DNA of 64,000 nt from Betaproteobacteria bacterium (GTDB lineage Bacteria > Pseudomonadota > Gammaproteobacteria > Burkholderiales > Casimicrobiaceae), in assembly GCA_027492485.1 (NCBI GenBank), contig JAPUER010000022.1:1-64000 (forward strand). Direction: 5' to 3'. Positions 1,377 to 62,150 of the stretch are shown piece after piece (positions within the stretch are counted from its first letter, which is position 1; each line of letters opens with the position of its first letter). The notes under the pieces are model-generated. The model was not told the origin of the DNA. It made no database searches and saw nothing but the letters and a program-made list of their open reading frames with translations. The translations under genes and the position numbers were made by a program.

Positions 1377-1913
1377 GAAAGTCTCTCCCTCGGGTCGGTC
1401 GGATGTCGCGACATATTGGAAACGGCAGTCTCAAACGCAGCGCGATTCGCGCCGCCTTGCAAAGACCCTGTTTGCCAGCCGGACATTTCTAGTCTCCATT
1501 TTAGGTTCGAAAGCTGTCTTTCCAGCCATCGAAGCACTCCAAACGGCGGCCGAAACTGCCTGCAAGCCGGCAAAACTTGATCTGGCGCAAGCGGCGCCCG
1601 ATTCGTCGCTCGCCCGGACGCAGTACAGCATTTTCACGGAAGCCCCATTGCATATAGGCAAAGCGGCGAATTATCGACAAGTCGACTTTATGTCGAATTG
1701 GCCTCTGTGCCCGTTTGGATAGGCGTTTCTAACAAAAAGCTGCTGTCCAACCAACCGCATCACGCGCGCCCACCACTGGCGAAAGCCGGCGGACACTGGC
1801 GGTGCCGCGCCGGCAGTTCGTCGACCGGGCTTGGCGCCGGCCCCGGCCAGCGCCATAGACTGCACCCATCGCAATCCACCGCTTCAGCGCATCAGCGCCG
1901 AGCACCGAACCGC
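1377..1913. other. Intergenic region between divergent genes
   Basis: This 537-bp stretch lies between the desaturase and the 2TM gene. Positions 1626-1744 hold repeat copy 1. The part next to the desaturase (1377-1625) and the part next to the 2TM gene (1745-1913) show no convincing ORF, RNA gene or operator. An open frame upstream of 1914 exists in the 2TM frame but runs through the repeat and does not look like protein. Confidence 0.6.
1626..1744. repeat. GTCGAC-centred palindromic repeat, copy 1
   Basis: The GTCGAC hexamer sits at 1681-1686, within 2 bp of the element's midpoint. The left end is CAGCATTTT and the right end AAAAAGCTG. Inner motifs GCCCCATTGCATATAGGC (left) and GCCCGTTTGGATAGGC (right) are the degenerate hairpin arms seen in the other copies. 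It lies between two divergent genes. Confidence 0.85.
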
Positions 1914-2237
1914 ATGGACGACGAACTGATCCTCCCCGGCATGTCCGAACGCGAAATCGCCATCCGCCGCCGCGTGCACCGGCTGGCCGAGTTCTATCGG
2001 CACCTGTTTTTCTACGTCATCGTCAACGTCATGCTCTGGTGCCTCAACCTCTGGATGCTGTGGGGCACGGCGGCGGCCGGGCGCTTCTGGTCGTACTGGG
2101 CGATCTGGCCGACGCTGTGGTGGGGCATTGGCGTCTTCGTGCACGGCCTGTCGGTGCTGCCGCTCTGGGGCTTCTTCTCGCAGGACTGGGAGGACCGCAA
2201 GGTGAAAGAGCTTTTGCAGAAGGAGCAACGGCCATGA
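1914..2237 (+). CDS. 2TM-domain membrane protein
   Basis: A 107-residue protein of the 2TM type: a short charged N-terminus, membrane segments at about 23-45 and 56-78, and a charged C-terminal tail ending near QDWEDRKVKELLQKEQ. The start at 1914 is chosen because residues encoded further upstream come from repeat DNA. Its stop overlaps the start of the next gene (ATGA), so the two are probably translationally coupled. The same 2TM domain forms the N-terminus of the downstream kinase, which suggests the proteins associate in the membrane or arose by duplication. Biochemical role unknown. Confidence 0.85.
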   Translation: MDDELILPGMSEREIAIRRRVHRLAEFYRHLFFYVIVNVMLWCLNLWMLWGTAAAGRFWSYWAIWPTLWWGIGVFVHGLSVLPLWGFFSQDWEDRKVKELLQKEQRP

Positions 2238-3157
2238 ACGCGGCCCCGCCCGGCACCGCACAGCCGCTGTCTTACGCCGACGCCCGCTATCAGGAGTCGC
2301 TGCGCGTCGCCCGCAAGCGGGTGAAGGAAATCCGCGGCTTCTACATCTCGATCTCGTTGTACGCCGTGATCATCCCGATCCTCTGGGTCATCAACCTCAG
2401 CACCGGCACTCGGCTGTGGGCGCACTGGCCGATGATCGGCTGGGGCATGGGTCTCTTCGCGCAGGGCTTGACCGTGTTTGCCGGGCGCTCCTTCTTTGGC
2501 CCCGAGTGGGAGGCCAGGAAGGTCGACGAGATCATGGCCCGCGAAAAGCTCAAGGTGGTGGCGAGCGAGAAGCAGCTGGTGCAGGCACAGATGCGCATGC
2601 TGCAGGCGCAGATCGAGCCGCACTTCCTATTCAACACGCTGGCCACCATCCAGAGCCTGATCGGCCGCTCGCCCGAGCGCGCCAGCCTGATGCTGGACAA
2701 CTTCATCGCCTACCTGCGGCAAAGTCTCTCCGCCAGCCGCGCGCAGGACGGCACCGTGCAGCAGGAGGTCACGCTGCTGCAACACTATCTCGAACTGATC
2801 AGGATTCGCATGGGCGAGCGCCTGCAATACGGCTTCGATGTCGATCCCGCGCTCGCATCGGCGCCGCTGGCGCCGATGCTGCTGCAGCCGCTGGTCGAAA
2901 ACGCCATCAAGCACGGCCTGGAACCGAAGGTCGAAGGCGGCCGCGTCGACGTCGCGATCGGTCGCGACGGCGATTCGATGACGCTCCGCGTCCGCGACAA
3001 CGGCCTCGGCTTCGGCGAACATGCCGACAGCGCCGGCACCGGCGTCGGCCTCGCCAATCTGCGCGAACGGCTCAACGTCCTCTATGATGGCCGCGCCACG
3101 CTGACCGTCGCCGACGCCAATCCCGGCACCGACATCACGATCCGCGTGCCACTGTAG
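2234..3157 (+). CDS. LytS-type sensor histidine kinase with 2TM sensor domain
   Basis: A 307-residue membrane kinase. Residues 17-100 form a 2TM domain (segments about 36-56 and 65-83). Residues 120-190 are the His_kinase domain of the LytS/YehU class with motif QIEPHFLFNTL and phospho-acceptor His130. The ATPase domain follows with N-box LQPLVENAIKHG (217-228), DNGLGF (255-260) and GTGVGLANL (268-276). There is no periplasmic sensor domain, so the signal is probably read in the membrane. The partner regulator is the LytTR gene downstream. The TAG stop lies inside the GTAGGAGCGG repeat. Confidence 0.92.
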   Translation: MNAAPPGTAQPLSYADARYQESLRVARKRVKEIRGFYISISLYAVIIPILWVINLSTGTRLWAHWPMIGWGMGLFAQGLTVFAGRSFFGPEWEARKVDEIMAREKLKVVASEKQLVQAQMRMLQAQIEPHFLFNTLATIQSLIGRSPERASLMLDNFIAYLRQSLSASRAQDGTVQQEVTLLQHYLELIRIRMGERLQYGFDVDPALASAPLAPMLLQPLVENAIKHGLEPKVEGGRVDVAIGRDGDSMTLRVRDNGLGFGEHADSAGTGVGLANLRERLNVLYDGRATLTVADANPGTDITIRVPL

Positions 3158-3269
3158 GAGCGGCTTGCCGCGACCGCCGCGAAGGCGATTTCGATGACGG
3201 GGTGCATTGCGCTCAAGTTAACGGACACCTTGCGTCAGCCGTGTGCGGTCGCGGCAAGCCGCTCCTACA
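3154..3269. repeat. Inverted repeat, GTAGGAGCGGCTTGCCGCGACC family
   Basis: Two nearly perfect inverted arms, about 3154-3176 and 3245-3269, are separated by roughly 70 bp. This resembles the widespread REP-like GTAGGAGCGGCTTGCC sequences of proteobacteria. The left arm supplies the TAG stop of the kinase gene. The element separates the kinase and response-regulator genes without an obvious terminator. Confidence 0.85.
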
Positions 3270-3297
3270 GAAACTTTTCTACGCCTTACCCACTGCC

Positions 3298-5544: not shown

Positions 5545-6774
5545 CTACCCGGCCCGCTCGAACACCGCCGCAAAGAACCCATCACAGCCATCCCGCTGCG
5601 GCAGCAACTGGGTAAAGCGCGAGTCGCCCGCGTCGTCACCGCGCAACGACGACGGCACCACGGTCCAGCCTTCATTCGTTGCCAGAAAATCGTCGGCGAT
5701 CTTTTCGTTCTCTTCCGTCAGCACGCTACAGGTCGCATACACCAGCCGCCCGCCCGGCCGCACCAGGCGTGACGCGGCGGCGAGGATGCTGCTTTGCTTG
5801 ACGAGCAGTTCCTTCACGCTGGCCGGCGATTGCCGCCATTTGAGGTCGGGGTTGCGCCGCAGCGTGCCCAGGCCGGAGCACGGCGCGTCGACCAGCACGC
5901 GGTCGACCTTGGCGATGAATTTGTCGAGCCGTTTGTCGTGCTCGCTCTCGATGCGCATGGTCTGCACGTTGCTGGCGCCGCTGCGCGCCAGGCGCGGGCC
6001 GAGGTTGTCGAGCCGTTTCTCGTTGACGTCGAGCGCGTAGAGCCGGCCGGTGCCGGCCATCGTCGCGGCCAGCGCGAGCGTCTTGCCGCCGGCGCCGGCG
6101 CAGAAATCGACGACCATCTCGCCGCGGCGGGCGCCGACGATTTGCGCCAGCAACTGGCTGCCCTCGTCCTGCACTTCCAGCGTGCCGTCCTCGAACAGCG
6201 AATGGCGCGAGATGTCGACCCGATGCGGCAGGCGGATGCCCACCGGCGACAGCGGCGTGGCGCGCGCATCCGGGAACCCTTCTTTCTGCAAACGGCCGAG
6301 AACGGCGTCGCGCCTGGCCTTCAGCGTGTTGACGCGGAGATCGAAGGGGGCCGGCGCCAGCAGCGCATCGGCCAGCGCCAGACGCTCGTCGTTGCCGTAC
6401 TGCACGCCGAGCCGGTCCCACAACCAGGTCGGCAACTCGCGGCGCGGATGCGGGCCGAGCGCTTCCTCGGCCTTCAGGAACTTGGCGTAGCGGTCTTCTT
6501 CGCCGGGCGGCACCTTGACGCGGCGGCGGAACTGGCGGGCCAGCGCGGCCAGCGCGATGGCGTCGAATTTGGCGCCGTCGCCGGCCATCGCCTCGACCGA
6601 GAGCCGATGGCGAAGCCAGGCGTAATAGCCCTCGGCGACCACGACGCGGTCCTGCGAGCCGACGCGCTTTTCGCGCAGCACATAGGACAGCGTGCGGTCG
6701 GCCGGATAGTCGAATTTGGCGGCGGACTGGATGGCGAAGGCGAGCGCGCTGAGCGCGGAAGGTCGGGCAAGCAT
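5545..6774 (-). CDS. RsmB/NOP-family RNA (cytosine-5) methyltransferase
   Basis: A 409-residue SAM-dependent methyltransferase. The SAM-binding motif VDFCAGAGGKT is at 222-232 and the acidic loop ALDVNEKRLDNL follows. The two catalytic cysteines of RNA m5C enzymes are Cys299 (DAPCSGLG) and Cys349 (YATCSVL). The N-terminal 150 residues are helical and may bind RNA. Its length fits RsmB-like enzymes, but assignment to 16S C967 rather than another rRNA site is uncertain. It is a single gene, divergent from the delta-60 pair, with repeat copy 2 in between. Confidence 0.9.
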   Translation of the reverse strand: MLARPSALSALAFAIQSAAKFDYPADRTLSYVLREKRVGSQDRVVVAEGYYAWLRHRLSVEAMAGDGAKFDAIALAALARQFRRRVKVPPGEEDRYAKFLKAEEALGPHPRRELPTWLWDRLGVQYGNDERLALADALLAPAPFDLRVNTLKARRDAVLGRLQKEGFPDARATPLSPVGIRLPHRVDISRHSLFEDGTLEVQDEGSQLLAQIVGARRGEMVVDFCAGAGGKTLALAATMAGTGRLYALDVNEKRLDNLGPRLARSGASNVQTMRIESEHDKRLDKFIAKVDRVLVDAPCSGLGTLRRNPDLKWRQSPASVKELLVKQSSILAAASRLVRPGGRLVYATCSVLTEENEKIADDFLATNEGWTVVPSSLRGDDAGDSRFTQLLPQRDGCDGFFAAVFERAG

Positions 6775-6798
6775 CGCGGCATTGTAGGCGGCGACAAA

Positions 6799-6916
6799 TC
6801 AGCTTTTTACGCTAACGCCCATTCAATATGGGCTCATGGCGCGTTTTAATCGAAAGTCGACTATGCGGTAAATCAACGTCCAGCCCCGATACAACAATCG
6901 TTTCACCGAAAAGCCA
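6799..6916. repeat. GTCGAC-centred palindromic repeat, copy 2
   Basis: GTCGAC is at 6856-6861, at the element's centre to within 1 bp. The left end ATCAGCTTTTTACGC and right end CGAAAAGC mirror each other. The left half carries the best inner hairpin of all copies, GCCCATTCAATATGGGC. It sits between two divergent genes. Confidence 0.88.
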
Positions 6917-7067
6917 TACGACTTTCCGCACTCGCTTGCGGCCGTTGGCGGTCAGCGCTGGCAGTCATTTGCGATCGTTCTCCGCCACGCCGCGACTGCC
7001 GTGCGATGAGCCAGTTTCTCCGGTACGCCGCTATCGTGCAATGACCGGCAACGAATCCTTCGCCATC

Positions 7068-8582
7068 ATGAATTGCACAATCTCCCCAGCCGACGCCGCG
7101 CGCCGGCTTGCCCGCCGTCTCGGCATGCTGCTCGCGCTGGCCGGCGCGACGCCGCTGTTCGCCGCGCCCGGCCTCTACGACACCAGCTTCAACGGCACCG
7201 GTATCGCGCGCATCGATTTCGGCACCAATTACGACATCGTCCGCGCCGTCGCCGTGCAGCCGGACGGCAAGATCGTCAGCGTCGGCAGTTGCGGCAAAAC
7301 GGCCGGCGCCGCCGCAGCGCGCAACATCTGCATCGCCCGCACGAACGCGAGCGGCTCGCTCGACACCGGTTTCGCCGGCAGCGGCGTCGTCCAGATTACA
7401 AACAGCGGTGATAACTACGCCTCGGGCGTGGCCATCACGCCGGGCGGCGACATCCTGGTCAGCGGCACCTGCCAGAGCAGCTTTTGCGCCTACAAGCTGA
7501 GCGCCAGCGGCGGGCTTTATACCAACTTCGGCACCTACAGCCCCTCCGGCGGGCGCGTGATGTTCGCCCCGAGCGGGCTGGTCATGGCCGCGCGCAGCCT
7601 GCTCCTGCAGGCGGACGGCGCCTTCGTGATCGGCGGCTCCTGCTTCAACAGCACCGGCGCGGAATCGATCTGCCTGGCGCGCTTCGACGGCAACGGCAAT
7701 CTCGACAACGGTTTCGGCGCGGCGGGCGCGGGCGTTCAGCTCGGCTTCTTCACCGGGCAGATCCTGCGCCTCGGCGGCCTCGCGCTGCAGGGCGACGGTA
7801 AAATCGTCTACGGCGGCTCGCTCAACCCCGGCTCGCGGTTCTACGTCATCCGCGGGCGCGTCAACGCCAACGGCAGCTTCGACGGCGGCTTTTCGACCGC
7901 GACGATCGCGCCGACCGGCGCCAGCAACGCGCTCGGCACCGGCGTCGCCCTGCAGGCCGACGGCAAGCTGCTGATCGGCGGCTATTGCACGGTGACCTCG
8001 ATGCAGCGCTTCTGCGTCACCCGCGTGCTGGGCAGCGACGGTTCGGTCGATACCGGTTACGGCAGCGGCGGCTTCTACATTGCGCCGACCACCGTGCTCG
8101 GCGGCGGCACCGGCGAAGCGATCGTCGCGCAGCCGGATGGCAAAGCCATCCTGAGCGGCACCTGGAACGGCAATTTCGCGGCGATCCGCCTCAACGACGA
8201 CGGCACGCTGGACCCGATGTGGGCCGGCAGCGGCTACACCTACGGCGCCACCAGCGGCGGCGACCAGCTCTACGCCTCGGCGCTGCAGCGCGACGGCAAG
8301 CTGGTCTGGGCCGGGCAGTGCACCCCCAGCGGGCTGGACCCGGCGTTCTGCCTGCAGCGGCTCGACGGCGGCCCTTATGACGCCTCGCAATGCGTGCCCG
8401 ATATCGACGACGACGGCCGCGTGCTCGGGCCGACCGACATGCTGATCCTGTCGCGCGTGCAGCAGGGCTTGAGCGGCAGCGCCGTGCTCGGCGGCATCAA
8501 CTTTGCGCCCACCGCCACGCGAACGACGTGGCCGGCGATCCGGCAATATCTGGTCGTTCATTGCGGCTTGACGGTACAGTGA
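7068..8582 (+). CDS. Secreted delta-60-repeat protein (first of tandem pair)
   Basis: A 504-residue exported protein. A signal peptide (residues 1-31, cleavage near PLFA-APG) is followed by repeated segments of about 55-60 residues, each with a core like VQPDGKIVSVGSC and a following LDTGF or LDNGF, which is the delta-60 repeat predicted to build a beta-propeller. The last 65 residues contain DIDDDG, then a helical stretch and RTTWPAIR. ATG 7041 is an alternative start adding nine residues. The stop overlaps the next ATG (TGATG). Function unknown; a surface or extracellular role is inferred from the signal peptide. Confidence 0.8.
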   Translation: MNCTISPADAARRLARRLGMLLALAGATPLFAAPGLYDTSFNGTGIARIDFGTNYDIVRAVAVQPDGKIVSVGSCGKTAGAAAARNICIARTNASGSLDTGFAGSGVVQITNSGDNYASGVAITPGGDILVSGTCQSSFCAYKLSASGGLYTNFGTYSPSGGRVMFAPSGLVMAARSLLLQADGAFVIGGSCFNSTGAESICLARFDGNGNLDNGFGAAGAGVQLGFFTGQILRLGGLALQGDGKIVYGGSLNPGSRFYVIRGRVNANGSFDGGFSTATIAPTGASNALGTGVALQADGKLLIGGYCTVTSMQRFCVTRVLGSDGSVDTGYGSGGFYIAPTTVLGGGTGEAIVAQPDGKAILSGTWNGNFAAIRLNDDGTLDPMWAGSGYTYGATSGGDQLYASALQRDGKLVWAGQCTPSGLDPAFCLQRLDGGPYDASQCVPDIDDDGRVLGPTDMLILSRVQQGLSGSAVLGGINFAPTATRTTWPAIRQYLVVHCGLTVQ

Positions 8583-15385: not shown

Positions 15386-15529
15386 GCGTGCTCGGGTGAA
15401 CGTCATCGAAAGGGTGACGAATTGTGGTCCGGCCCTGCCCCGTCGTCCAATACCCGAAACAGATAGAACTATTCAAAAACAAGAGGAGGCGCGTCGGCAG
15501 CGATGGGACCGGGAAACAGACCGCTCGAC

Positions 15530-16462
15530 ATGGACTGGCTGGAGGATTTCATCGTCCTCGCCGAAAGCGGCAATTTCTCGCGCGCCGCGCAGGCGCGGCA
15601 CATCGCGCAGCCGGCATTCAGCCGCCACATCAAATCGCTCGAAGAATGGGTCGGCGTCGATCTGTTCGACCGCACCACGCATCCGGTTGCGCTGACCGCC
15701 GCCGGCAAGCGTCTACTGCCCGAGGTCGAGGACGTGTTGCAGCGGCTGGAGGCGGCCCGCTCGCAGGCGCGCGCGGCGCACGAGCAGGCGGCGGTGAGCC
15801 TGCAATTCGCGGCGACGCATGCGCTGTCGCTGACCTTCTTTCCGGCCTGGCTGGGCAAGCTCGAGGCGCAGCTGCCGGTGGGCCGCAAGATGGGGCCGAT
15901 CCAGATGCTGTCGGACAGTTTCGCGGCCTGCGAGGACGTGATGCTGCAGCGGCGCGCGCAGTTCCTGCTCTGTCACGGTCATCCCGACGTGGCGAACCGG
16001 CTCGACCCGGCACAGTTTGAATTTGCGGTGGTCGGTGGCGATCGCCTGTTGCCGGTGTCCGCCGCGACTGCCGGCGGCACGCCGCTGCATGCCATCGTGG
16101 ACGAAACGGGCAGCAAGGCCCGCGCGGCGGCGCTGCCGGTGCTGGCCTATGGCGAGGCGTCGGGCATCGGGCAGATCATGCGCGCCGTGATGGCGGGCCG
16201 GCTCGGCGACGGCAGCGCGCTGGCAACGCGCACCGTGTTCACCGCGCATCACGCCGTGCTGCTGAAGACGATGGCAATGGAAGGCCGCGGCGTGGCCTGG
16301 TTGCCGCAGAGCCTGATCGCGCCGGAGCTGGCCGGCGGTGCGCTAGTGCTGGCCGGCGACGACGCCTGGACGGTGCCGATCGAGGTGCGGCTGTTCCGGC
16401 CGCGGGTGCCGTTGTCGGAGACGGCAGAGGCGTTGTGGCGGGTGGCGAGCAACGCCCGGTGA
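15530..16462 (+). CDS. LysR-family transcriptional regulator
   Basis: A 310-residue regulator. The N-terminal winged helix-turn-helix (residues 1-60: SFSRAAQARHI-type helix, AFSRHIKSLEEWVG, LFDRTTHPVALTAAG) is followed by a linker helix and a periplasmic-binding-like effector domain. ATG 15530 is the typical LysR start (MDWLEDFIVLAESGNFSRAA); ATG 15503 would add nine residues and is nearer to the GAGGAGG site. It is divergent from the aldolase/Bug/SDR/tarD cluster and is the likely activator of that cluster. Confidence 0.9.
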   Translation: MDWLEDFIVLAESGNFSRAAQARHIAQPAFSRHIKSLEEWVGVDLFDRTTHPVALTAAGKRLLPEVEDVLQRLEAARSQARAAHEQAAVSLQFAATHALSLTFFPAWLGKLEAQLPVGRKMGPIQMLSDSFAACEDVMLQRRAQFLLCHGHPDVANRLDPAQFEFAVVGGDRLLPVSAATAGGTPLHAIVDETGSKARAAALPVLAYGEASGIGQIMRAVMAGRLGDGSALATRTVFTAHHAVLLKTMAMEGRGVAWLPQSLIAPELAGGALVLAGDDAWTVPIEVRLFRPRVPLSETAEALWRVASNAR

Positions 16463-16498: not shown

Positions 16499-16622
16499 GA
16501 TACATCTTTACGATGAATGCCGCATCGGATAAGGGCTCCGGCCGCAAATTGGCTGAAAGTCGACTTCATGCGAAATATCGCGCCATGCCTAGCGCAGATA
16601 CCGCATAAGCAAAAAAGCTGAT
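16499..16622. repeat. GTCGAC-centred palindromic repeat, copy 3
   Basis: GTCGAC at 16558-16563 lies at the element's centre. The right end AAAAAAGCTGAT is intact; the left end (ACATCTTTACG) is the most decayed of all copies. It lies between two convergent genes and ends 3 bp from the stop codon of the DUF3108 gene. Confidence 0.78.
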
Positions 16623-16624
16623 GG

Positions 16625-17797
16625 CTACTCGGTGCTGATCGCCGTCAGTTCGAACGAGGCACTGCGGCCCTGCCCGTTCACCACTTTCAGCCGCAGCGGG
16701 ATGTAGTGAAACTCGGGTGACAGCCAGAAGGTGGCGTTGCCGTTCGGCTTGCCGTCGGCGTCGGGTTTGCGGCTGCCCTTCCAGACCTGGGTGGCGACCT
16801 TTTTCAGCTGGCGCTGGCCGGTGACCGGGTCGGCATCGCCGGTCGGCACCTCGATCGTTTCCTCGCCCGCGCGGTCGAGCGTATAGACATCCATACGCCG
16901 CGTGGTGCCGACGCTGAGCGTCACGCGGTCGGTCTTCGGCGTCGAAAAATAGAACTGCACGATCCAGGTCAGCGCATCGTGCGGCTGCCCCTCGAACGGC
17001 ACCGGCTCCTTGTCCGGCAGGCGCAGCACGCCTTTGTCGTAGTCGAAGACCACTTCGCGCCGCTTGTCGGGGTTGCCGCGTTCCTCGACGAATTTTTCCG
17101 GGCGCAGGCCGTCGGCGGTGATCTGCCCTTCCGATTCGCCGGTGAAGGTGCCGGGATAGAGCAGCGCTGCGATACCGCGACCGCGGCCGACGATGCGCAG
17201 CTTGTAGCGGCCGTTGTCGTGGCTGAATTGCAGCACCACCGGGCCGACCTCGAACTTCTGCTCGCCGAGAAACGCGGTGTAGCCGAGGTTGATCTTCTTC
17301 GGCGGCATGCGCGCCGGCGGCGGTGGCGGCTCGGGGGCGGGTGGTGGCGGCGCCGGTTCCGGCGGCGGCGGTGCGGCAGCGACTGCTGGCTCGGGCGCCG
17401 CGGCGCTGTCCGGCGCGGCGGGCGCAACCGGGGTCAGGTCCGGCACCGGGTCGGCAACGATGGCAACCGGCGCTTCGGCGGCGACGACCGGCTTCGGCCG
17501 CTTCGGTTTCGGTTTCGGCTTCGGCGCCGGCGGCGGCGTTGCGACCGGCAGCGGCGGGGGCGGCAGCGGCATCAGCTTCGCCGCCAGCGTGATGCGCTGG
17601 TCCTCCGGCGGCTCCACATCGGCGGTGGCGCCGATCAGCAGATGCAGCAGGATCGAGGCCGCCAGCGCCAGCGTCAGCTTGCGGCGCGGCGTCGCCAGCA
17701 GGCCGCGACGGCTGGCCAGGCCACGCGCCAGGTCAAAGCGGGCCGCATCGTGGGCCGCCGGGTTCACATTCACGCGGGAGGAGACAGCATCGGCCAT
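16625..17797 (-). CDS. DUF3108-domain protein with TonB-like N-terminus
   Basis: A 390-residue protein. A single membrane segment lies at about 41-57. It is followed by a proline/lysine/alanine-rich periplasmic spacer (about 75-165, with PKPKPKPKRPKP) like that of TonB, and a DUF3108 beta-rich domain from about 168 (KINLGYTAFLGEQKFEV) to the end. DUF3108 proteins resemble LolA/LolB-type lipid-binding folds, but no function is established here. It lies 40 bp downstream of purN on the same strand and may be cotranscribed. Its 3' end abuts repeat copy 3. Confidence 0.85.
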   Translation of the reverse strand: MADAVSSRVNVNPAAHDAARFDLARGLASRRGLLATPRRKLTLALAASILLHLLIGATADVEPPEDQRITLAAKLMPLPPPPLPVATPPPAPKPKPKPKRPKPVVAAEAPVAIVADPVPDLTPVAPAAPDSAAAPEPAVAAAPPPPEPAPPPPAPEPPPPPARMPPKKINLGYTAFLGEQKFEVGPVVLQFSHDNGRYKLRIVGRGRGIAALLYPGTFTGESEGQITADGLRPEKFVEERGNPDKRREVVFDYDKGVLRLPDKEPVPFEGQPHDALTWIVQFYFSTPKTDRVTLSVGTTRRMDVYTLDRAGEETIEVPTGDADPVTGQRQLKKVATQVWKGSRKPDADGKPNGNATFWLSPEFHYIPLRLKVVNGQGRSASFELTAISTE

Positions 17798-22273: not shown

Positions 22274-23380
22274 ATGAAAGTGATTGTCGGTCTCTCCGGC
22301 GGCGTCGATTCCGCCGTTTCCGCCTGGCTGCTCAAGGCGCAGGGCCATGAGGTGCTCGGCATCTTCATGAAGAACTGGGAGGACGACGACAACAGCGAAT
22401 ACTGCTCCTCGCGCGAGGATCTGGTCGACGCGGTCAGCGTGGCCGACCACATCGGCATCGACATCGAGGTGGTGAACTTCGCCACCGAGTACAAGGACCG
22501 CGTGTTTTCGTACTTTCTGGCCGAATACCAGGCCGGCCGCACGCCGAACCCGGACGTGCTGTGCAACACCGAGATCAAGTTTGCCGCCTTTCTCGACCAC
22601 GCGATGCGGCTGGGCGCCGACAAGATCGCCACCGGCCATTACGCCGGCGTGCGCGAGGCGACCGATGGCTCGGGCCGCGTCGAACTGCTCAAGGGCGACG
22701 ACGACAGCAAGGATCAGTCGTACTTTCTGCACCGGCTGAATCAGGCGCAGCTGTCGAAGGCGATGTTTCCGCTGGCGAACATTCCCAAGCGCGAGGTGCG
22801 CGCGATCGCCGAACGCGAGCGCATCCCGAACTTCGCCAAGAAGGATTCGACCGGCATCTGCTTCATCGGCGAGCGGCCGTTCCGCGAATTCCTCGAACGC
22901 TATCTGCCGAAGACGCCGGGCCGCATGGTCACGCCCGAGGGCGAGGACGTCGGCGCCCATCAGGGGCTCGCGTACTACACGCTGGGCCAGCGCGGCGGCC
23001 TGCACATCGGCGGCTCACGGGCAGGCTCGGGCGAGCCGTGGTACGTGGCCGGCAAGGACATGGCGAACAACCGACTGATCGTGGTGCAGGGCCGCGAGCA
23101 CCCGGCGCTGCGCCGCAACGACGTGCCGCTGGTCAACACGCACTGGATCGCCGGCAGCGAGCCGGTTGCCGGCAACGGCCGAGGCGCGGTCGCCGAAGGC
23201 GGCTACGGCGGCAAGACGCGCTACCGGCAACCGGATGCCGCCTGCGAATACCGGCCGCATGGCGGCGTCGATGGCCAGCCGCTGCTGCACTTCCAAGAGG
23301 GCCAGTGGGCACCGACGCCGGGACAGTACGCGGTGCTGTATCGCGGCAACGTCTGCCTGGGCGGCGGGGTGATCGCCTGA
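22274..23380 (+). CDS. mnmA: tRNA-specific 2-thiouridylase
   Basis: A 368-residue enzyme that thiolates U34 of tRNA-Lys, -Glu and -Gln using sulfur relayed from a cysteine desulfurase. The PP-loop [11 protein letters not shown] is at 6-16. The catalytic cysteines are Cys97 ([12 protein letters not shown]) and Cys196 (STGICFIGE). [11 protein letters not shown] and [14 protein letters not shown] are further landmarks. ATG 22274 matches the family N-terminus [10 protein letters not shown]. It is monocistronic as far as can be seen, with repeat copy 4 downstream. Confidence 0.95.
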
Positions 23381-23410: not shown

Positions 23411-23532
23411 ATCAGCTTTTCGATGCTGTGCGCTGTGCATATGGGCTGGACACGCTTTTCAAGCAAAAGTCGACTTAATGCGATTTACCGCGTCGAACCC
23501 ATTACGGCAAAGGCTGCAATACAAAAGCTGCT
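23411..23532. repeat. GTCGAC-centred palindromic repeat, copy 4
   Basis: GTCGAC is at 23469-23474. The ends ATCAGCTTTTCG and AAAAGCTG are equidistant from it to the base. The core AAAAGTCGACTT is nearly perfectly symmetric. It lies between mnmA and the next gene on the same strand. Confidence 0.9.
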
Positions 23533-39594: not shown

Positions 39595-40334
39595 TGCGTG
39601 CGGGCTGCGGCGCGCGACGCCTCGTCGTGTCCGTTAATGGCCTTGTCGCTGCCGTTGAGGGCGGGCTTGTCGATGCAGTAGCCAAGACCGCGGAAGGTGC
39701 GCACCTGGATGCCGGCCGGCTCCAGCTTCTTGCGCAGGCGGTGCACGTACACCTCGATGGCGTTCAGCGAAATATCGCTGTCCCAGGCGCAGAGGCCTTC
39801 CATCAGTTGTTCCTTGGTCACCGCGCGACCGGCGCGCAGCAGCAGCACTTCGAGAATGCCTGCCTCGCGCACCGAGAGTTCCAGCGGTGTGCCGTCGGAC
39901 GAGGCCTGCCGGGAGGCGATGTCGAAGGTCAGGCGGCCATGTGCCAGCAGATTGCTGGTGGCGGCGTTGCGGCGACGGATCAGCGCGCGCACCCGGGCAT
40001 GCAATTCGTCGAGCGCGAAGGGCTTCACCAGATAGTCGTCGGCGCCGGCGTCCAGCCCCTCGACGCGATCGGTGACGGAGTCCATCGCCGTGGTGATCAG
40101 CACCGGCACCGATTTCTGCGCTTCGCCGCGCGAGCGCAACTGGCGCAGCACCTGCAACCCGGACATCTTGGGCAGCCCGAGATCGAGAATCACCAGATCG
40201 TATTGCGCCGTGCTCAGTGCCGTCGACGCCGAGGGGCCGTCGGTCACCCAGTCCACCGCGTAATGCTCGCGTTTCAGGCTCGCGCAGACGCCACTGCCCA
40301 GCTCGGCGTCATCCTCCACCAGCAGAATTCGCAC
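39591..40334 (-). CDS. OmpR-family response regulator, TctD-like
   Basis: A 247-residue regulator: receiver domain with Asp51 (LVILDLGLPKMSG) and Lys in LVKPF, and a C-terminal winged helix (about 125-225, NAIEVYVHRLRKKLEP, RTFRGLGYCID). The start is GTG 40334 with GGAGG eight bases upstream; the frame extends upstream into the repeat and is not used. It is divergent from the Bug gene at 40599, with repeat copy 5 between them. Confidence 0.93.
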   Translation of the reverse strand: MRILLVEDDAELGSGVCASLKREHYAVDWVTDGPSASTALSTAQYDLVILDLGLPKMSGLQVLRQLRSRGEAQKSVPVLITTAMDSVTDRVEGLDAGADDYLVKPFALDELHARVRALIRRRNAATSNLLAHGRLTFDIASRQASSDGTPLELSVREAGILEVLLLRAGRAVTKEQLMEGLCAWDSDISLNAIEVYVHRLRKKLEPAGIQVRTFRGLGYCIDKPALNGSDKAINGHDEASRAAARTQ

Positions 40335-40379: not shown

Positions 40380-40513
40380 TATCAGCTTTATGTCGAATGC
40401 GCCATTTGGCAAGGGTGTGGCCGATCATTTGTCAACAAGTCGACTTTCGATGTTTTCTCTTCATGCGCCCAATGGATACGGCGCTTGCAGCGATGAATTT
40501 CACAAAGCTGATA
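40380..40513. repeat. GTCGAC-centred palindromic repeat, copy 5
   Basis: GTCGAC is at 40439-40444. Both ends are the longest and best preserved: TATCAGCTTTA and its mirror AAAGCTGATA. Right-half arm GCGCCCAATGGATACGGCGC. The centre is off the midpoint by 5 bp, so the right half has a small insertion. It lies between divergent TctD-like and Bug genes. Confidence 0.87.
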
Positions 40514-40598: not shown

Positions 40599-41609
40599 AT
40601 GCTGTTGTCACGTCCATCATCCTGCCGTCCACATACGGCGTTGCGTGGTCTGCTGCGCATCTGCGTTGCCGGCGCCGCGCTTGCCTTGCCCGCACTGGTA
40701 GCGGCGCAGCCGTTCCCGTCGAAACCGGTGAAACTGGTGGTGCCCTACCCCGCCGGCGGCTTCCCGGACACCGTGGCGCGGGTGCTGGCCAAGGCGTTGA
40801 CCGAAAAGTGGAACCAGCAGGTCATCATCGACAACCGCCCCGGCGGCAACGGCGCCGTCGCCGCGCAAACCATCAAGTCGGCGGGCGCCGACGGCTACAC
40901 GCTGCTGGTCACCGACGGGTCGATGTTCACCATCAACCCTGCGCTCTACAGCAAGCTCGAATACGACCACAAAAAGGATTTCGTGCCGGTCTCCGCGCTC
41001 GGCAAGGCGCCGCTGTTCGTCACCGTGCACCCGAGCGTGCCGGCGAACACGCTCGCCGAGTTCATCGCCTACGTCAAGGCCAACCCCGGCAAGGTGAACT
41101 ACGGCACCTCCGGCATCGGCAGCACCCACCATCTGACCGGCGAATCGTTCTCCGCAGCACTAGGCCTGAACATGGTGCACGTGCCGTTCAAGGGCATGGG
41201 CCAGGCCACACCGGCGCTGGTCGGCGGCCAGGTGCAGATGATCTTCTCGGCGCTGCCGGCGATCGCCGGTTTCGTCAAGGATAACCGCGTCAAGCTGCTG
41301 GCGCAGAACTCCAGCAAGCGTTTCTCGCAGGCGCCGACCATCCCGACCATCGCCGAGGTCGCCATCCCCGGTTTCGACTTCGCGCCCACCACCATCGTGA
41401 TGGCGCCGGCGGGCACGCCGCCCGCCGTGCTCAAGCAGTTGTCGACCGACGTCGCGGCCGCCATCCGCACGCCCGCCGTCGCCGAAACGCTGCTCAACTC
41501 CGGCGTCGAAGTGATCGGCAGCAGCAGCGACGAGCTGGCCCGCGTGCTCGCCGAGGAAGCCGAACGCTTCGCCAAGATCATCAAGAGCATCAACATCAAG
41601 GCGGACTGA
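40599..41609 (+). CDS. Bug (TctC-type) extracytoplasmic solute-binding protein
   Basis: A 336-residue periplasmic binding protein. Signal peptide 1-37 (cleavage near VAA-QPFPS), then VKLVVPYPAGGFPDTVARVL, IDNRPGGNGAVAAQTIKSA and MVHVPFKGMGQATPALVGGQ. GGAGG precedes the ATG. A CGACCGGTCG palindrome at 40543-40552 could be a regulator site. It is followed by the class II aldolase gene 7 bp on, and is divergent from a TctD/TctE-like pair, the usual control of such proteins. The ligand is unknown. Confidence 0.92.
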   Translation: MLLSRPSSCRPHTALRGLLRICVAGAALALPALVAAQPFPSKPVKLVVPYPAGGFPDTVARVLAKALTEKWNQQVIIDNRPGGNGAVAAQTIKSAGADGYTLLVTDGSMFTINPALYSKLEYDHKKDFVPVSALGKAPLFVTVHPSVPANTLAEFIAYVKANPGKVNYGTSGIGSTHHLTGESFSAALGLNMVHVPFKGMGQATPALVGGQVQMIFSALPAIAGFVKDNRVKLLAQNSSKRFSQAPTIPTIAEVAIPGFDFAPTTIVMAPAGTPPAVLKQLSTDVAAAIRTPAVAETLLNSGVEVIGSSSDELARVLAEEAERFAKIIKSINIKAD

Positions 41610-41616: not shown

Positions 41617-42357
41617 GTGACGAGTGCATCGCCAGCGCTGGTCGACGATCTGGTCAGCGCCAATCACATCCTGTTCGTCGAAGGCGTGGTCGATGGCTTC
41701 GGCCACGTCAGCGTCCGCCACGACGGCCGCGACGACCGCTTCCTGCTTGCCTGCGGCGTGGCGCCGGCCACCGTCACGGCGGACGACATCGTCGAAGTCG
41801 ACTACGACGGAACCGTGCACGACATCGCCGGCCGCCGCAGCTACCTCGAACGCTTCATCCACAGCGAAATCTACAAGGCGCGGCCGGACGTGGTGGCCGT
41901 CGTGCACAGCCATTCGCCGGCGATCATTCCGTTCGGCGTCACCCGCGCCACGCTGCGGCCGGTGTGCCACATGAGCGGTTTTCTCGGCTTTTCGACGCCG
42001 GTGTTCGAGATTCGCGACAGCGCCGGCGAAAACAACGACATGCTGGTCAAGAACGCGGCGCTCGGCCGTGCGCTGGCGGCGTCGCTCGGCGGCAACCTGT
42101 TCGCGCTGATGCGCGGACACGGCTCGGTCACCGTCGCGCATTCGCTGACGCTGGCGGTGGCGCGCGCCATCTGGGCCGAAATGAATGCCAAATTGCAAAC
42201 CGAGGCGATGCGAATTGCCGGTGGCGACGATGGCGTCAATTACCTGACGCCGGGCGAAGCCGCCGGCTCGATGACGATCAACGAAACCGTGGTCGACCGG
42301 CCGTGGGATTTCTGGAAAGCCCGCGCCCGGGTGGCGCTGGCCGGGCTTAGTCGCTAG
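41617..42357 (+). CDS. Class II aldolase/adducin-family protein
   Basis: A 246-residue protein with the FucA/RhaD fold. The zinc-binding histidines are in VVHSHSPAII (about 94-96) and in LMRGHGSVTV (about 168). The phosphate or carboxylate loop FGHVSVRH is near 29-35. Start GTG 41617, 7 bp after the Bug gene. Members cleave sugar phosphates or decarboxylate; here the context suggests a sugar-acid. Repeat copy 6 starts 12 bp after its stop. Confidence 0.88.
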   Translation: MTSASPALVDDLVSANHILFVEGVVDGFGHVSVRHDGRDDRFLLACGVAPATVTADDIVEVDYDGTVHDIAGRRSYLERFIHSEIYKARPDVVAVVHSHSPAIIPFGVTRATLRPVCHMSGFLGFSTPVFEIRDSAGENNDMLVKNAALGRALAASLGGNLFALMRGHGSVTVAHSLTLAVARAIWAEMNAKLQTEAMRIAGGDDGVNYLTPGEAAGSMTINETVVDRPWDFWKARARVALAGLSR

Positions 42358-42368: not shown

Positions 42369-42492
42369 TATCAACTTTTTCCCCGTAAACGGCATTGGCG
42401 CTGGACTCAGGGTTCGGAAATGGTAAAAGTCGACTTTTGCTGATTTTCCGCTTTCAACCCCGATCGAATGCGCGTTTCATGCTAAAGCTGAT
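42369..42492. repeat. GTCGAC-centred palindromic repeat, copy 6
   Basis: GTCGAC is at 42429-42434 within the fully symmetric 14-mer AAAAGTCGACTTTT. Ends are TATCAACTTTTT and AAAGCTGATT. It lies between convergent genes, and its right 16 bp include the stop and last codons of tcdA. Confidence 0.88.
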
Positions 42493-43268
42493 TCGCCGCA
42501 ATGGCTGATCTCATCCAGCGCACACCCCGCCGCCAGCAGGCCCATGCTCGCGGTCATGTGCATCGCCGAGCCGTAGCCGGCGCAGGCGAGCCCGGCGCCG
42601 CCGTCCGCCGGCGCCGATGCCTGCGGCTCGGTGCTGTAGATCGCGGTGATGCGAAACTTTTTGTCGCCGCGCGGGAAGGCGTAGTCGCGCCGCAAGGTCG
42701 CGCGCAACTTCGACAGCAGCGCGTCGTGCGCCGTCAGCGCCAGATCGCCGGTGGTCAGGCGCGAGGCATCGGTCTTGCCGCCGGCGCCACCGCAGACGTA
42801 CACCGGCAATCGGTGTGTCACGCAATGCGCCACCAGCGCGGCCTTGGCGCGCACCTGATCGATGGCGTCGATGACGAAGCTGGCAGCGACCGGGATCAGT
42901 GCGGCCAGGTTGTCCGGCGTCACGAAATCGTCGACGACGTCGACCTGACAATCCGGCGCGAAGCTGGCAATGCGTTCGCGCATCGCATCCACCTTGTTGC
43001 GCCCGAGATTGGCCAGCGTGGCGTGTGCCTGCCGGTTGAGGTTCGATTCCGCCACCACGTCGAGGTCGATCAGCGTCAGCCGCCCGACGCCGGAGCGCGC
43101 CAGCGCTTCCGCCGCCCACGAGCCGACGCCGCCGATGCCGACCACCACGCCGTGCGCCGCGCGGATGCGGGCGAAACCGGCCGCGCCATAGAGCCGCGCC
43201 ACGCCACCCAGGCGCCGCGCGGCGTCGTCATCGAGGTCGGCGCCGCATGCGCTGGCAGGGGTCGTCAT
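42477..43268 (-). CDS. tcdA: tRNA threonylcarbamoyladenosine dehydratase (cyclises t6A)
   Basis: A 263-residue E1-like enzyme that makes cyclic t6A on ANN-decoding tRNAs. The nucleotide-binding motif VVVGIGGVGSWAAEALARSG is at about 41-60, LIDLDVVAESNLNRQAHA follows, and the later CVTHRLPVYVCGGAGGKTDA is typical. The last residues ESALA and the TGA stop are encoded by the end of repeat copy 6, so the native C-terminus may have been replaced. It lies downstream of the DUF3460 gene. Confidence 0.9.
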   Translation of the reverse strand: MTTPASACGADLDDDAARRLGGVARLYGAAGFARIRAAHGVVVGIGGVGSWAAEALARSGVGRLTLIDLDVVAESNLNRQAHATLANLGRNKVDAMRERIASFAPDCQVDVVDDFVTPDNLAALIPVAASFVIDAIDQVRAKAALVAHCVTHRLPVYVCGGAGGKTDASRLTTGDLALTAHDALLSKLRATLRRDYAFPRGDKKFRITAIYSTEPQASAPADGGAGLACAGYGSAMHMTASMGLLAAGCALDEISHCGESALA

Positions 43269-53245: not shown

Positions 53246-53755
53246 TCAGCGACCGCCGTACTCGCCGGTCAGGAAGTCGAGCGCGAGGTCATAGCCGCGC
53301 ACCCCCATGCCGACGATGATGCCGCGCGCAATGGCGCTCAGGTAGGAGTGATGGCGGAATTCCTCCCGCGCATGCACGTTGGTGATGTGCACTTCGATGA
53401 ACGGCAGCGAGGCGCCGGCAAAGGCGTCGCGCAGCGCCACACTGGTGTGGGTGAAGGCGCCGGCGTTGATGATGCAGGCGCGGGTGCCATCGGTGCGGCT
53501 GGCGTGGATGCGGTCGAGCAGCACGCCTTCGTGGTTGCTTTGCAGACAATCGAGCTCGAATCCGGCCTTGGCGGCCCGCTCGGCCAGGTGGGTTTCGAGC
53601 TGCGCCAGCGTGGTGGAGCCGTATTTCTCGGGCTCGCGGGTGCCGAGCAGGTTGAGGTTCGGCCCGTGCAGCAGCAACAGGCGCGGCGCCTTGTCGCCGG
53701 TGGTTTTGCGTGACTTGTCGGCCTTTGCAGCGGCCGATTTAGCGTCTTTCGCCAT
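53246..53755 (-). CDS. aroQ: 3-dehydroquinate dehydratase, type II
   Basis: A 169-residue shikimate-pathway enzyme. The active-site loop [11 protein letters not shown] contains Tyr45. [16 protein letters not shown] and the terminal [21 protein letters not shown] have the catalytic Asn and His residues. ATG 53755 yields a lysine/alanine-rich N-terminal tail of about 22 residues not present in most AroQ. Upstream gap holds repeat copy 7; downstream is accB. Confidence 0.94.
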
Positions 53756-53939: not shown

Positions 53940-54061
53940 TATGGCTTTTTGCGGAAAACCCCAATTGAATAGGGCTCAGAGCCGCAAAATACCAAAAGTC
54001 GACGAATAGGCATTTGATGCTTTGAGCCCATATCCAATGGCGCGTCCAGCGAAAAGCTATA
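53940..54061. repeat. GTCGAC-centred palindromic repeat, copy 7
   Basis: GTCGAC at 53998-54003 is exactly at the midpoint. Left end ATGGCTTTTTGCG, right end GCGAAAAGCTAT. The halves align over most of their 58 bp, including CCCCAATTGAATAGGGCTC on the left and GAGCCCATATCCAATGGCG on the right. It lies between the TlpA gene and aroQ on the same strand. Confidence 0.92.
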
Positions 54062-54115: not shown

Positions 54116-54655
54116 TTAGCTCAACATCGATGCAATTTCGCCGTATTTGAGCCGACCTACGCGACGAAGCATCACTTCGCCGGCCGGCGAAACAACCAGC
54201 GAGAACGGCAGCACGCCCTGCGGATTGCCCATCGTCTTCAGGGCTTCCAGCCAGGCGACGTCGGCCAGCAGCACCGGATAGTTGACGCCAATCTCTTTCG
54301 CGAAGTGCTCCACCGGTTGCCGACGATCGACGGCGATGCCGACAAATTGCAGGCCTTTGCCGCCAAAATCGGTTTGCGCCTTGACGAAATCCGGCATTTC
54401 TTCGCGGCACGGCCCGCACCAGGTGGCCCAGAAGTTGATCACCAGCGTCTTGCCTTGCCAGGTCGACATCGGCGTTTGCTTGCCGCCGTCGAGCGCCTCG
54501 AAGCTGGCGCCGAGCAGTTTCGCCTCCTCGCCCTTGACTGCGCCGCGCGTCAGCCACCAGTGCCCGCCGAGCACGCCGATCGCGCCGGCCGAGACACCGG
54601 CAGCGCCGATCAGCAGGGCGCGGCGTCCGCCGCTTGTCGATTCACTCATTGCCAT
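54116..54655 (-). CDS. TlpA-family thioredoxin-like protein
   Basis: A 179-residue exported redox protein. The N-terminal GGRRALLIGAAG and hydrophobic stretch resemble a Tat-type signal anchor. The thioredoxin domain has the active site WCGPC with Cys80 and Cys83, preceded by TLVINFWAT. The gene follows the DsbD alpha domain gene by 4 bp, so the two probably act in one periplasmic electron path, for example in reducing cytochrome c or scrambled disulfides. Confidence 0.9.
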   Translation of the reverse strand: MAMSESTSGGRRALLIGAAGVSAGAIGVLGGHWWLTRGAVKGEEAKLLGASFEALDGGKQTPMSTWQGKTLVINFWATWCGPCREEMPDFVKAQTDFGGKGLQFVGIAVDRRQPVEHFAKEIGVNYPVLLADVAWLEALKTMGNPQGVLPFSLVVSPAGEVMLRRVGRLKYGEIASMLS

Positions 54656-59902: not shown

Positions 59903-59954
59903 AGCGGTCGACATTGACGTCAACAACCCGCGCCGCACTTCGTTATTCAACGCT

Positions 59955-60392: not shown

Positions 60393-60458
60393 ACGCGGGC
60401 GCCGCCGGCCCGACACTACGGCACACTACAGACATCCGGCGGGACTACACTCGCCCGC

Positions 60459-61901
60459 ATGAAAGCCACCAAAATCGTTGCCACGCTCGGGCCTGCGAGC
60501 GATACCGTCGACATCATCGCCGCGATGATCGAGGCCGGAGCCGATGTGTTCCGCCTCAACTTCTCGCACGGCACGCCGGAAGATCACGCCGGCCGCGCCA
60601 ACCGCGTGCGCGAGGCGGCCGTCCGCTGCGGCCGCGAGGTCGGCATCATGGGCGATCTGCAGGGCCCCAAGATTCGCGTCGGCAAATTCGACGGCGGCCG
60701 TGCCCACCTCGAGGCCGGGCAGCCGTTCATCCTCGACGCCGCGCTCGACAACAAGGCGCCGCTGTCCAACGGCGAACGCGCCAGCCTCGACTACAAACAA
60801 CTGCCGCAGGATGTCCGGCCCGGCGACACGCTGCTGCTGGCCGACGGGCTGATCCAGTTGACGGTGACCCGCGTCGACGGCGACGCCGTGCACACCATCG
60901 TCATCCACGGCGGCGAACTGTCCAACAACAAGGGCATCAACAAGCTCGGCGGCGGCCTCACCGCGCCGGCGCTGACCGCGAAAGATCTCGCTGACATCAA
61001 GACGGCGGTGGACATCGACGTCGACTACCTCGCGGTGTCGTTCCCGAAAAGCGCGGCCGACATGCAGACCGCGCGCACGGTGCTGGCGGCGGCGGGCGGC
61101 AAGGCCCGGCTGATCGCCAAGATCGAGCGCGCCGAGGCGATCGTGCCGCAGACGCTCGACGAAATCATCGACGTCAGCGACGGCATCATGGTGGCGCGCG
61201 GCGATCTCGCCGTCGAGGTGGGCAACGCGGCGGTGCCGGCGCTGCAAAAGCGCATGATCGTGCGCGCCCGCGACAAGAACAAGCTGGTGATCACCGCCAC
61301 GCAGATGATGGAGAGCATGATCACCGCGCCGGTGCCGACGCGCGCCGAGGTGAGCGACGTGGCCAACGCCGTGCTCGATGGCACCGATGCCGTGATGCTG
61401 TCGGCCGAGTCCGCCGCCGGCAAGTATCCGGTGGAAACGGTCAAGGCGATGGCCGCCATTGCGCTCGCCGCCGAGCGCTCGCAGGTGTACGAGCTCGACC
61501 GCGACTTCATCAACCAGCAGTTCGTGCGGGTCGACCAGGCCATCGCGATGGCATCGCTGTTCGCCGCGTTCCACCTGAACGCCAAGGCGATCGCCGCGCT
61601 GTCGCAATCCGGCTCCACCGCGCTCTGGATGAGCCGGCACGACAGCGGCGTGCCGATCTACGCGCTGACGCCGGAGGCCGCCGCCGCCCGCCGCGCCGCG
61701 CTGTACCGCGGCGTGCGCCCGGTGGTAGTGCCGTTCGACGCCGATCGCGACCGCGCCCTGCAAGCGGCGGAGGACGCGCTGAAATCGCGCGCCGCCGTGG
61801 CCGACGGCGATCTCGTTGTGCTCAGTTGCGGCGAACCGATGGGCAAGAGCGGCGGCACCAACGCGCTGAAAGTCGTCCGCGTCGGTGAGCATCGGAGCTG
61901 A
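60459..61901 (+). CDS. pyk: Pyruvate kinase
   Basis: A 480-residue glycolytic enzyme. Landmarks: KIVATLGPASDT, VFRLNFSHG, DLQGPKIRVG, the active-site Lys in RLIAKIERAEA, DGIMVARGDLAVEVG and TQMMESMI. The MLSAESAAGKYPVETV segment shows the effector-domain boundary. The C-terminal domain is complete. CGTTCGCCCTGAG repeat copy 4 follows its stop by 22 bp. Confidence 0.96.
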   Translation: MKATKIVATLGPASDTVDIIAAMIEAGADVFRLNFSHGTPEDHAGRANRVREAAVRCGREVGIMGDLQGPKIRVGKFDGGRAHLEAGQPFILDAALDNKAPLSNGERASLDYKQLPQDVRPGDTLLLADGLIQLTVTRVDGDAVHTIVIHGGELSNNKGINKLGGGLTAPALTAKDLADIKTAVDIDVDYLAVSFPKSAADMQTARTVLAAAGGKARLIAKIERAEAIVPQTLDEIIDVSDGIMVARGDLAVEVGNAAVPALQKRMIVRARDKNKLVITATQMMESMITAPVPTRAEVSDVANAVLDGTDAVMLSAESAAGKYPVETVKAMAAIALAAERSQVYELDRDFINQQFVRVDQAIAMASLFAAFHLNAKAIAALSQSGSTALWMSRHDSGVPIYALTPEAAAARRAALYRGVRPVVVPFDADRDRALQAAEDALKSRAAVADGDLVVLSCGEPMGKSGGTNALKVVRVGEHRS

Positions 61902-61923
61902 GCACACACTGATTACAAGCTCC

Positions 61924-62002
61924 CGTTCGCCCTGAACGCAGTGAAGGGTTCGACCATTGGATGCCGATTTCAGACCCTTCGCCTTCGGCTCAGGGCGAAC
62001 GG
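61924..62002. repeat. CGTTCGCCCTGAG inverted repeat, copy 4
   Basis: Arms CGTTCGCCCTGAACGCAG and GGCTCAGGGCGAACGG, inner GTGAAGGGTTCG / GACCCTTCGCC. It is very similar to copy 1 and lies between pyk and repeat copy 8 of the GTCGAC family. Confidence 0.88.
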
Positions 62003-62029
62003 TTCCTACTTGATCATCAGCGTTTTCGT

Positions 62030-62150
62030 AACAGCTTTTCAGGCAAATGGCGTCAGCATTGGGCTAGCGACGCGAAATACTGAATAGTCGACTTTTAGAC
62101 CAATCATGCCATGAGCCCATATTGGATAAGGCTTTCAGCGAAAAGTTGAT
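62030..62150. repeat. GTCGAC-centred palindromic repeat, copy 8
   Basis: GTCGAC at 62087-62092 is within 1 bp of the midpoint. Left end ACAGCTTTTC, right end GCGAAAAGTTGAT. Right half contains GAGCCCATATTGGATAAGGC. It lies between pyk and coaBC on the same strand. Confidence 0.9.

Follow-up and report, generated by a model that had tools for sequence, protein, structure and literature searches.

The window analysed here is a stretch of 64,000 nucleotides (positions 1 to 64,000 of contig JAPUER010000022.1) from a betaproteobacterium of the family Casimicrobiaceae. By mnmA its closest named relatives are MAGs labelled Burkholderiales, Betaproteobacteria or Proteobacteria, which places it in the Burkholderiales. 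The window holds eight copies of an element of about 120 bp in which two mirrored arms of roughly 60 bp each surround a central TCGA. The arm consensus in this genome reads roughly CAGCTTTT..CCgCatT.gAATtGGGC..ATTT..AAAGTCGAC, followed by its mirror, and within each arm lies an inner palindrome whose midpoint is some 33 bp away from the axis. An initial annotation, made from the letters of the window, had described an eight-copy family with GTCGAC at the midpoint; we found all eight copies where it had placed them, and in every one the hexamer sits on the dyad axis. Below, the window's genome is called G000. It is compared with G005, a congener with a single-contig assembly, and with G006, G007, G010, G012, G015, G019 and G020 of the same genus. 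The eight copies are as follows.

Copy 1: 1623..1744, axis 1683/1684; between a desaturase/ISL3-like gene (180-1376, minus strand) and a gene at 1914-2237 (plus strand); 86.0 bits; ortholog present in G005.
Copy 2: 6798..6919, axis 6858/6859; between an RsmB-like gene (5545-6774, minus strand) and a DUF5122 gene (7041-8582, plus strand); 92.0 bits.
Copy 3: 16501..16622, axis 16561/16562; between the convergent genes of a LysR-type protein (15503-16462, plus strand) and a DUF3108 protein (16625-17797, minus strand); 89.7 bits; ortholog present in G005.
Copy 4: 23411..23532, axis 23471/23472; directly 3′ of mnmA, which ends at 23380; 83.6 bits.
Copy 5: 40380..40513, axis 40441/40442; between a response regulator gene (39591-40334, minus strand) and a TctC gene (40641-41609, plus strand); 71.4 bits; ortholog present in G005.
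Copy 6: 42371..42492, axis 42431/42432; between the convergent aldolase-II (41617-42357, plus strand) and ThiF (42477-43268, minus strand) genes; 84.5 bits.
Copy 7: 53940..54061, axis 54000/54001; between the genes of a type II dehydroquinase (53246-53755, minus strand) and a redoxin (54116-54649, minus strand); 113.0 bits; ortholog present in G005.
Copy 8: 62029..62150, axis 62089/62090; between the pyruvate kinase gene (60459-61901, plus strand) and coaBC (62191-63444, plus strand); 95.5 bits.

The right arm of copy 5 exceeds the usual length, and copy 6 overlaps the end of the ThiF gene by about 16 bases. At copy 8, the G007 ortholog belongs to another of the element types described below, and no element was called at that gap in G010. 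The match of the gene at 5545-6774, beside copy 2, to the 16S rRNA methyltransferase RsmB falls under curated cut-offs.

A matrix built from 35 elements outside the window, which had themselves come from a search that started from the window copies, recovered the same eight copies at 71-113 bits. With this matrix no other match exceeded 5 bits in the window or in the reversed or complemented window, and the best score in ten order-1 Markov windows was -1.9 bits. An nhmmer search with a half-element profile, the training of which included the window copies, gave 16 half-matches of at least 24.9 bits in the window. These are both arms of the eight copies; the next-best match scored 4.8 bits.

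The gene context was assessed in 464 kb of G000 and 780 kb of G005, using a home-made gene caller. These samples gave 43 and 61 element calls, respectively, or 104 in all, with one split element entering the count twice. None of the 104 axes lies inside a called gene, which bears out the annotation's observation that the elements avoid gene bodies, and gaps of every orientation are occupied, as it had also reported. Among gaps of at least 125 bp, an element is present in 16 of the 39 between convergent genes, 29 of the 108 between divergent genes and 52 of the 238 between genes in tandem. Convergent gaps are enriched (16/39 versus 81/346 for the others; Fisher P 0.020), and facing 3′ ends in G000 lie at a short distance from the element (median 47.5 bp).

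Abundance and lineage-specific consensus

The call densities extrapolate to about 370 copies genome-wide in G000 (range 350-380) and about 350 in G005, so hundreds of copies are estimated for G000 beyond those in the window. Across the G000 genome, AAAGTCGACTTT with at most one mismatch occurs 155 times, compared with 8 occurrences of the same pattern read backward. R1, a half-element model built from one element type, matched 17 of 64 genomes of the family at E 0.01: 16 of the 17 genomes of the genus, and G033 outside it, which has two weak matches (best E 0.0045). In a 300-genome sample of the order, R1 at E 1e-4 matched three genomes, all within the genus. As a single-type model R1 misses G006, G007 and G010 at E 1e-4, so elements of other types may occur in other genera. 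Scanning 180 kb of each of two other genera with five type matrices gave nothing above 15 bits, and the reversed control gave one match. Within the genus, G015 shows no elements and G020 few. Viral contigs, scanned at all 107 loci from two pattern scans, contained no convincing element, and AT-rich matrices there match reversed sequence about as often as forward sequence. The annotation had known of no described family with this sequence, and we also found none: no Rfam family matches, and word searches of the open-access literature turned up, among the matches listed, neither such a family nor a comparable array, although these searches are weak evidence of absence, the consensus not having been compared with repeat databases.

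Expectation-maximisation started from the G000 seed led to a separate consensus in each genome. In held-out halves of G000, G005, G006, G007 and G010 (two folds each), 9-23 elements per fold scored above 16 bits. Reversed sequence, which served as the control in place of an earlier one with arms moved by 300 bp that was judged unsuitable, gave 0-3, the three falling in a single G006 fold with 14 elements. The G012 consensus (11 elements) was checked by the reversed-sequence control alone, which gave 0, and the G019 consensus (6 elements) was checked through the counts from the type-matrix scan of other genera. In G000 and G005 the inner palindrome ends in GGGC and the centre is AAAGTCGACTTT; G012 and G019 have the same centre and a CGACCG..CGGTCG-like inner palindrome. 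The G010 type is GCCCAATTnAATTGGGC with the centre TTnTCGAnAA, G007 being similar, and the G006 type is GCCaTATgAAATAaGG with the centre TTTTCGAAAA.

At orthologous sites, the leave-one-out matrix of the element's own genome wins 32 of 34 scorings (29 elements), 18 of which involve G007 and G010. One exception is the G000 element at L169, which scores 26.6 bits with the G000 matrix and 46.3 bits with that of G012. A change of type in place is seen at one of two G000/G012 sites and at both G005/G012 sites. On an mnmA tree the element types group by lineage with 5 changes (minimum 4), a count matched by 0 of 200 shuffles. Thinly sampled genomes were typed from 1-8 elements, in some cases from just one or two, and with many forks unsupported it is uncertain how often the type changed.

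Some elements are split or halved, with other repeats beside one arm (L171:16050-16390, L176 near 5165, L166 near 4432 and L177 near 903). The adjoining repeats are either GC-rich and REP-like or of the TGTCATCCTGAGC type; at L171 both arms remain, about 198 bp apart. One orthologous site (L172 near 6117 in G000, L233 near 4539 in G005) shares a terminator-like GC hairpin followed by T's in the right arm.

Conserved positions, even spacing and conserved motif columns

To compare positions between genomes, we scored orthologous gaps for the presence or absence of an element. Between G000 and G005, two species in which the flanking proteins are 89.8% identical, 14 of 83 orthologous gaps are occupied in both genomes, 69 in neither, and none is discordant. 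Discordant gaps in wider pairs number 1 of 26 for G000/G012, 1 of 14 for G005/G012, 1 of 14 for G000/G007, 1 of 6 for G000/G006 and 4 of 44 for G007/G010; some of the discordances in distant pairs arise where one genome has no gap at that place. The site after mnmA, held by copy 4 in the window, is occupied by elements of one type or another in 13 of the 16 genomes of the genus that were scanned (41-112 bits, with a reversed best of 16.5), a scan in which five matrices contain the scored element itself and eight genomes are independent. The site is unoccupied in G012, G015 and G020 (scores below -3).

At these fixed places, sequence change is unevenly distributed. In 13 ungapped orthologous G000/G005 pairs (one of the 14, with unequal arms, was dropped), columns below 0.25 bits show an identity of 0.42, where non-orthologous elements have 0.30, and the immediate flanks one of 0.37. 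At columns of at least 1.2 bits it is 0.87, the family-wide value, although the columns were classed using these very sequences, so that high identity at the high-information ones is to be expected to a certain extent. Neutral decay would have reduced all columns equally. Instead, the uninformative columns are near saturation while the motif columns persist, a contrast that on these sequence comparisons is best read as selection on individual sites. A decayed partner would be expected to appear as a discordant gap, and none was found, so the contrast cannot be put down to copies having decayed beyond recognition.

The elements are also evenly spaced. The 97 intervals of G000 and G005 (with intervals below 400 bp, representing one split element, merged) have a mean of 12.1 kb and a median of 10.1 kb. 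Their coefficient of variation (CV) is 0.652, compared with 0.922 ± 0.084 for randomly drawn gaps, and 0 of 4000 simulations were as low; drawing gaps weighted by length gave a null CV of 0.906, again with 0 of 4000 as low. Intervals shorter than 4 kb make up 7% of those observed versus 26% in the null. The CV is 0.46 versus 0.89 in G006 (P 0.0005), 0.58 versus 0.84 in G010 (P 0.001) and 0.68 versus 0.85 in G007 (P 0.055), values that are not independent between genomes because orthologous sites are common to them.

These observations bear on several readings of the elements as mobile DNA. The annotation had suggested a miniature inverted-repeat transposable element (MITE) mobilised in trans, with no transposase nearby. 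The latter statement requires a qualification: beside copy 1, the gene at 180-1376 (minus strand) matches Pfam DDE_Tnp_ISL3 (E 1.4e-7) in addition to a fatty-acid desaturase domain. The gap adjoining this gene is orthologous in G005. Mobilisation in trans itself found no support. Across 101 elements and 120 settings, the best sign of target-site duplication was two exact 4-mers versus 0.33 expected. There was likewise no sign of recent copies, the maximum pairwise identity within a genome being 0.67 in G000, 0.63 in G005, 0.69 in G006, 0.56 in G010 and 0.51 in G007 (unequal-arm elements were dropped from both tests). There was no gain or loss at the 83 G000/G005 gaps, and the repeat on either side of the G000 Y1-transposase gene is not the element. 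An old, decaying MITE family, formerly moved in trans by a transposase recognising ATCAGCTTTT ends, would account for the ISL3-like domain next to copy 1 and for the size, terminal inverted repeats, placement between genes and copy number, which are like those of bacterial MITEs as described in the cited part of PMC2229807. We consider it quite unlikely, given the undecayed motif columns and over-dispersed spacing in addition to the missing duplications, the low pairwise identity and the absence of discordant gaps.

Known repeat families differ from the element in similar ways. ERIC/IRU, Correia, RUP and RPE are, like it, palindromic and intergenic, at about 100-150 bp (sections cited from PMC2229807); the element departs from such MITE-like repeats in lacking signs of target duplication and recent copies, and in its shared orthologous positions and even spacing. 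BRE, in the cited description (PMC3110155), also come from betaproteobacteria, are mostly intergenic and measure about 90 bp. They reach up to 29 copies, are over 70% identical, often stand in tandem and vary in number, whereas the element is dispersed, diverged and mirror-symmetric; this separation is by description rather than by direct sequence comparison. The CIR of Caulobacter and Brucella likewise have two intergenic inverted-repeat arms, but with a GANTC methylation site within the stem-loop (passages cited from PMC2229807). GANTC occurs in 8 of 43 G000 and 11 of 61 G005 elements, and its density in elements is 1.66 (G000) and 1.43 (G005) per kb, below the 1.98 and 2.24 per kb of the genomic sequence sampled. 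CIR are over 100 bp long, and their copy number is much lower than that of the element.

A selfish element that moves slowly and has target immunity, with insertions that seldom change, would yield over-dispersed spacing and could accommodate the discordant gaps of G007/G010 and of G000/G010 (4 of 13). It would not lead one to expect the complete agreement of G000 and G005 or motif columns kept at fixed sites, and we know of no mobile gene with matching ends, a search limited to Y1_Tnp. We regard this explanation as very improbable.

A REPIN-type element maintained by, and co-evolving with, a RAYT (Y1 tyrosine transposase) would explain paired inverted halves, hundreds of copies and inner palindromes that differ by lineage, as REPIN stems do. 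Y1_Tnp genes were detected in 15 of the 17 genomes, the exceptions being G015 and G020, which show no or few elements. This parallel looked promising. We dropped it since the Y1_Tnp loci of G000 and G012 hold other repeats. The single RAYT-like gene of G000 (G000:C74:26347-26682, L267) is flanked by a 31-nt inverted repeat of the GTAG type found in REP (repetitive extragenic palindromic) sequences, with no element in 3.3 kb of the locus, and GGGGTCAGGTCTTGCAA-type direct and inverted repeats adjoin the gene of G012 (L272). Among the 10 of 32 Y1_Tnp matches that were examined, 8 loci have no arm pair above 15 bits; the exceptions are L265, where one element is clear and another weak, and L264, with one arm. 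G015 and G020 both have small genomes (2.6 and 2.5 Mb), and a simpler account is that elements and gene were both lost there. REP and REPIN are defined by a GTAG or CGTC tag and units of 20-40 bp in the cited part of PMC3733652, whereas the arms of the element have no such tag and measure about 60 bp each, and there are no near-identical copies of the element. Selection for transposability would also not be expected to keep motif columns at fixed sites, and this reading seems extremely improbable.

The same elements could in principle act as RNA. The annotation had noted an inner hairpin, and a possible cruciform or three-hairpin RNA. As a consensus pattern the inner hairpin is real, but covariation tests give it no support as a conserved base-paired structure, and conservation of a cruciform or three-hairpin fold is likewise unsupported. 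Halves taken from the same element resemble each other no more than halves taken from different elements do (0.48 versus 0.50), and covariation extends along neither the long stem nor the arm hairpin (mean z 0.05-0.23 for mirror pairs across arms, after unequal-arm or low-score elements were dropped). The arm axis, that of the inner hairpin, never ranks first in seven overlapping sets, in which rival axes reach z 2.3-3.0. On these grounds we rejected the hairpin and cruciform. Two results point mildly the other way, and to that extent count against a site read as double-stranded DNA: in G010 the arm axis (sum 60) ranks second (z 2.4), and the innermost four pairs of 208 G000 and G005 halves number 375 where about 319 are expected. 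Transcribed hairpins serving mRNA stability or termination would fit these two results, the inner palindrome and the nearby facing 3′ ends. The occupied divergent gaps do not favour them, nor does Rfam, whose covariance models gave 0 matches at the gathering score in the window and 11 scattered sub-threshold matches, none stronger, in 16 further loci. Together with the covariation results, this makes a structured RNA very unlikely.

A putative docking site for a symmetric protein complex

Considering that the 120-bp two-fold symmetry, fixed-site conservation, even spacing and occurrence in all orientations together fit the docking site of a wrapping or loading complex, we lean towards reading the dispersed symmetric sites as topological or architectural sites in double-stranded DNA. 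Each copy would be a fixed site of about 120 bp, read as DNA by a large two-fold symmetric protein complex. Such sites would most likely act as loading, wrapping or anchoring points for chromosome topology, and the putative binder and its sites would drift together within each lineage. The retention of fixed places despite sequence change suggests a chromosome-organising role over a jumping element. By kind, the array may be likened to other dispersed chromosomal protein sites: matS, parS and KOPS are also dispersed, selected and chromosomal, but measure about 8-20 bp.

Three further points weigh against the architectural reading. First, positions are less stable in distant congeners, with G000 and G010 having a single occupied gap in common beside the four discordant ones. 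Second, called genes contain 14 of 37 elements in G007 and 12 of 39 in G010 (3 of 23 in G006). The density in G007 and G010 is one element per 4.6-4.9 kb, about twice that of G000; with about one third of their elements in called genes, it may be that some of these elements are spurious or that genes were miscalled. Third, the even spacing could also stem from transposition immunity.

The sites might also be operators through which an ordinary transcription regulator controls a very large regulon, with no architectural role. The inner palindromes resemble dimer operators and vary by lineage, as this would predict, whereas the 120-bp extent, the frequent occupation of convergent gaps (16/39) and the even spacing would be unexpected for a regulon. 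We consider this unlikely.

As the binder of an architectural site, DNA gyrase is the leading candidate by size and symmetry, followed by a nucleoid or condensin-type protein. Gyrase is the enzyme that, to our knowledge, has a site of such size and symmetry. The E. coli gyrase motif, as set out in the cited part of PMC6379681, is symmetric over 130 bp, with a 47-bp arm on each side of a centre, and its half-length of 64.5 bp is close to the roughly 61 bp of the element. The strong gyrase sites of Mu and BIME-2 share this plan of about 130 bp of two-fold symmetric DNA, and BIME-2 is intergenic like the element. The E. coli motif is highly degenerate, with a 10.75-bp period, whereas the element has a clear genome-specific consensus with inner palindromes, another period and other central bases.

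Several results tell against gyrase. Its central preferences are given in the cited section of PMC12324340 as -4G/+8C, -2A/+6T and +1G/+4C. With the centre AAAGTCGACTTT or TTnTCGAnAA, the element meets -2A alone, and this in the GTCGAC type alone. The strongest AT period over distances 14-64 is 7.5 bp in G000, G005, G006, G007 and G010 and 9.25 bp in G019, and over distances 0-64 it is 7.25-7.75 or 9.5-10 bp; most settings give 7.25-7.75 bp and none gives 10.75 (unequal-arm or low-score elements were dropped here as well), so the 10-11 bp GC period that marks the arms of strong gyrase sites is not seen. The template test was weak and its outcome mixed: the mean AT template does correlate at the annotated gyrase cut of Mu (r 0.188), and the cut is the local best within ±6 bp for 4 of 6 related templates, but its rank is 928 of 36590, so that 927 positions beat the known site. 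The AT-template scan of pSC101 gave no outstanding site. G015 and G020, with no or few elements, still have a gyrA-type gene. Finally, the gyrase idea leaves the genome-specific inner palindromes unaccounted for. That the elements are strong gyrase sites arrayed across the genome, as proposed by analogy in size and symmetry, is thus possible but doubtful.

We also looked at the gene content of the genus. PF00521 (gyrA/parC-type) is represented by one gene's worth in each of the 17 genomes, including the single-contig G005; it occurs as two contig pieces in G009, G017 and G019, presumably one split gene each, and is partial in G014. Topoisomerase IV subunit A may be missing from the genus, as well as from several genomes elsewhere in the family. 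Loss of topoisomerase IV as the cause of the array does not discriminate, since genera without detected elements also show one PF00521 gene. The number of HU/IHF genes, 2-4 in all 17 genomes, is no more discriminating.

Intergenic palindromic repeats are commonly viewed as mobile or decaying, but here the conserved columns, shared positions and even spacing point towards an architectural function. The genome-specific consensus offers a natural experiment in which hundreds of sites would be co-evolving with one putative binder. If gyrase is that binder, sequence could place supercoiling input along the chromosome. In its fullest form, which we put forward only tentatively, the family would be a whole-chromosome grid of selected gyrase (or condensin) docking sites, about one every 10 kb, with binder and sites shifting together by lineage; if true, this would amount to a sequence-encoded map of topological domains in bacteria.

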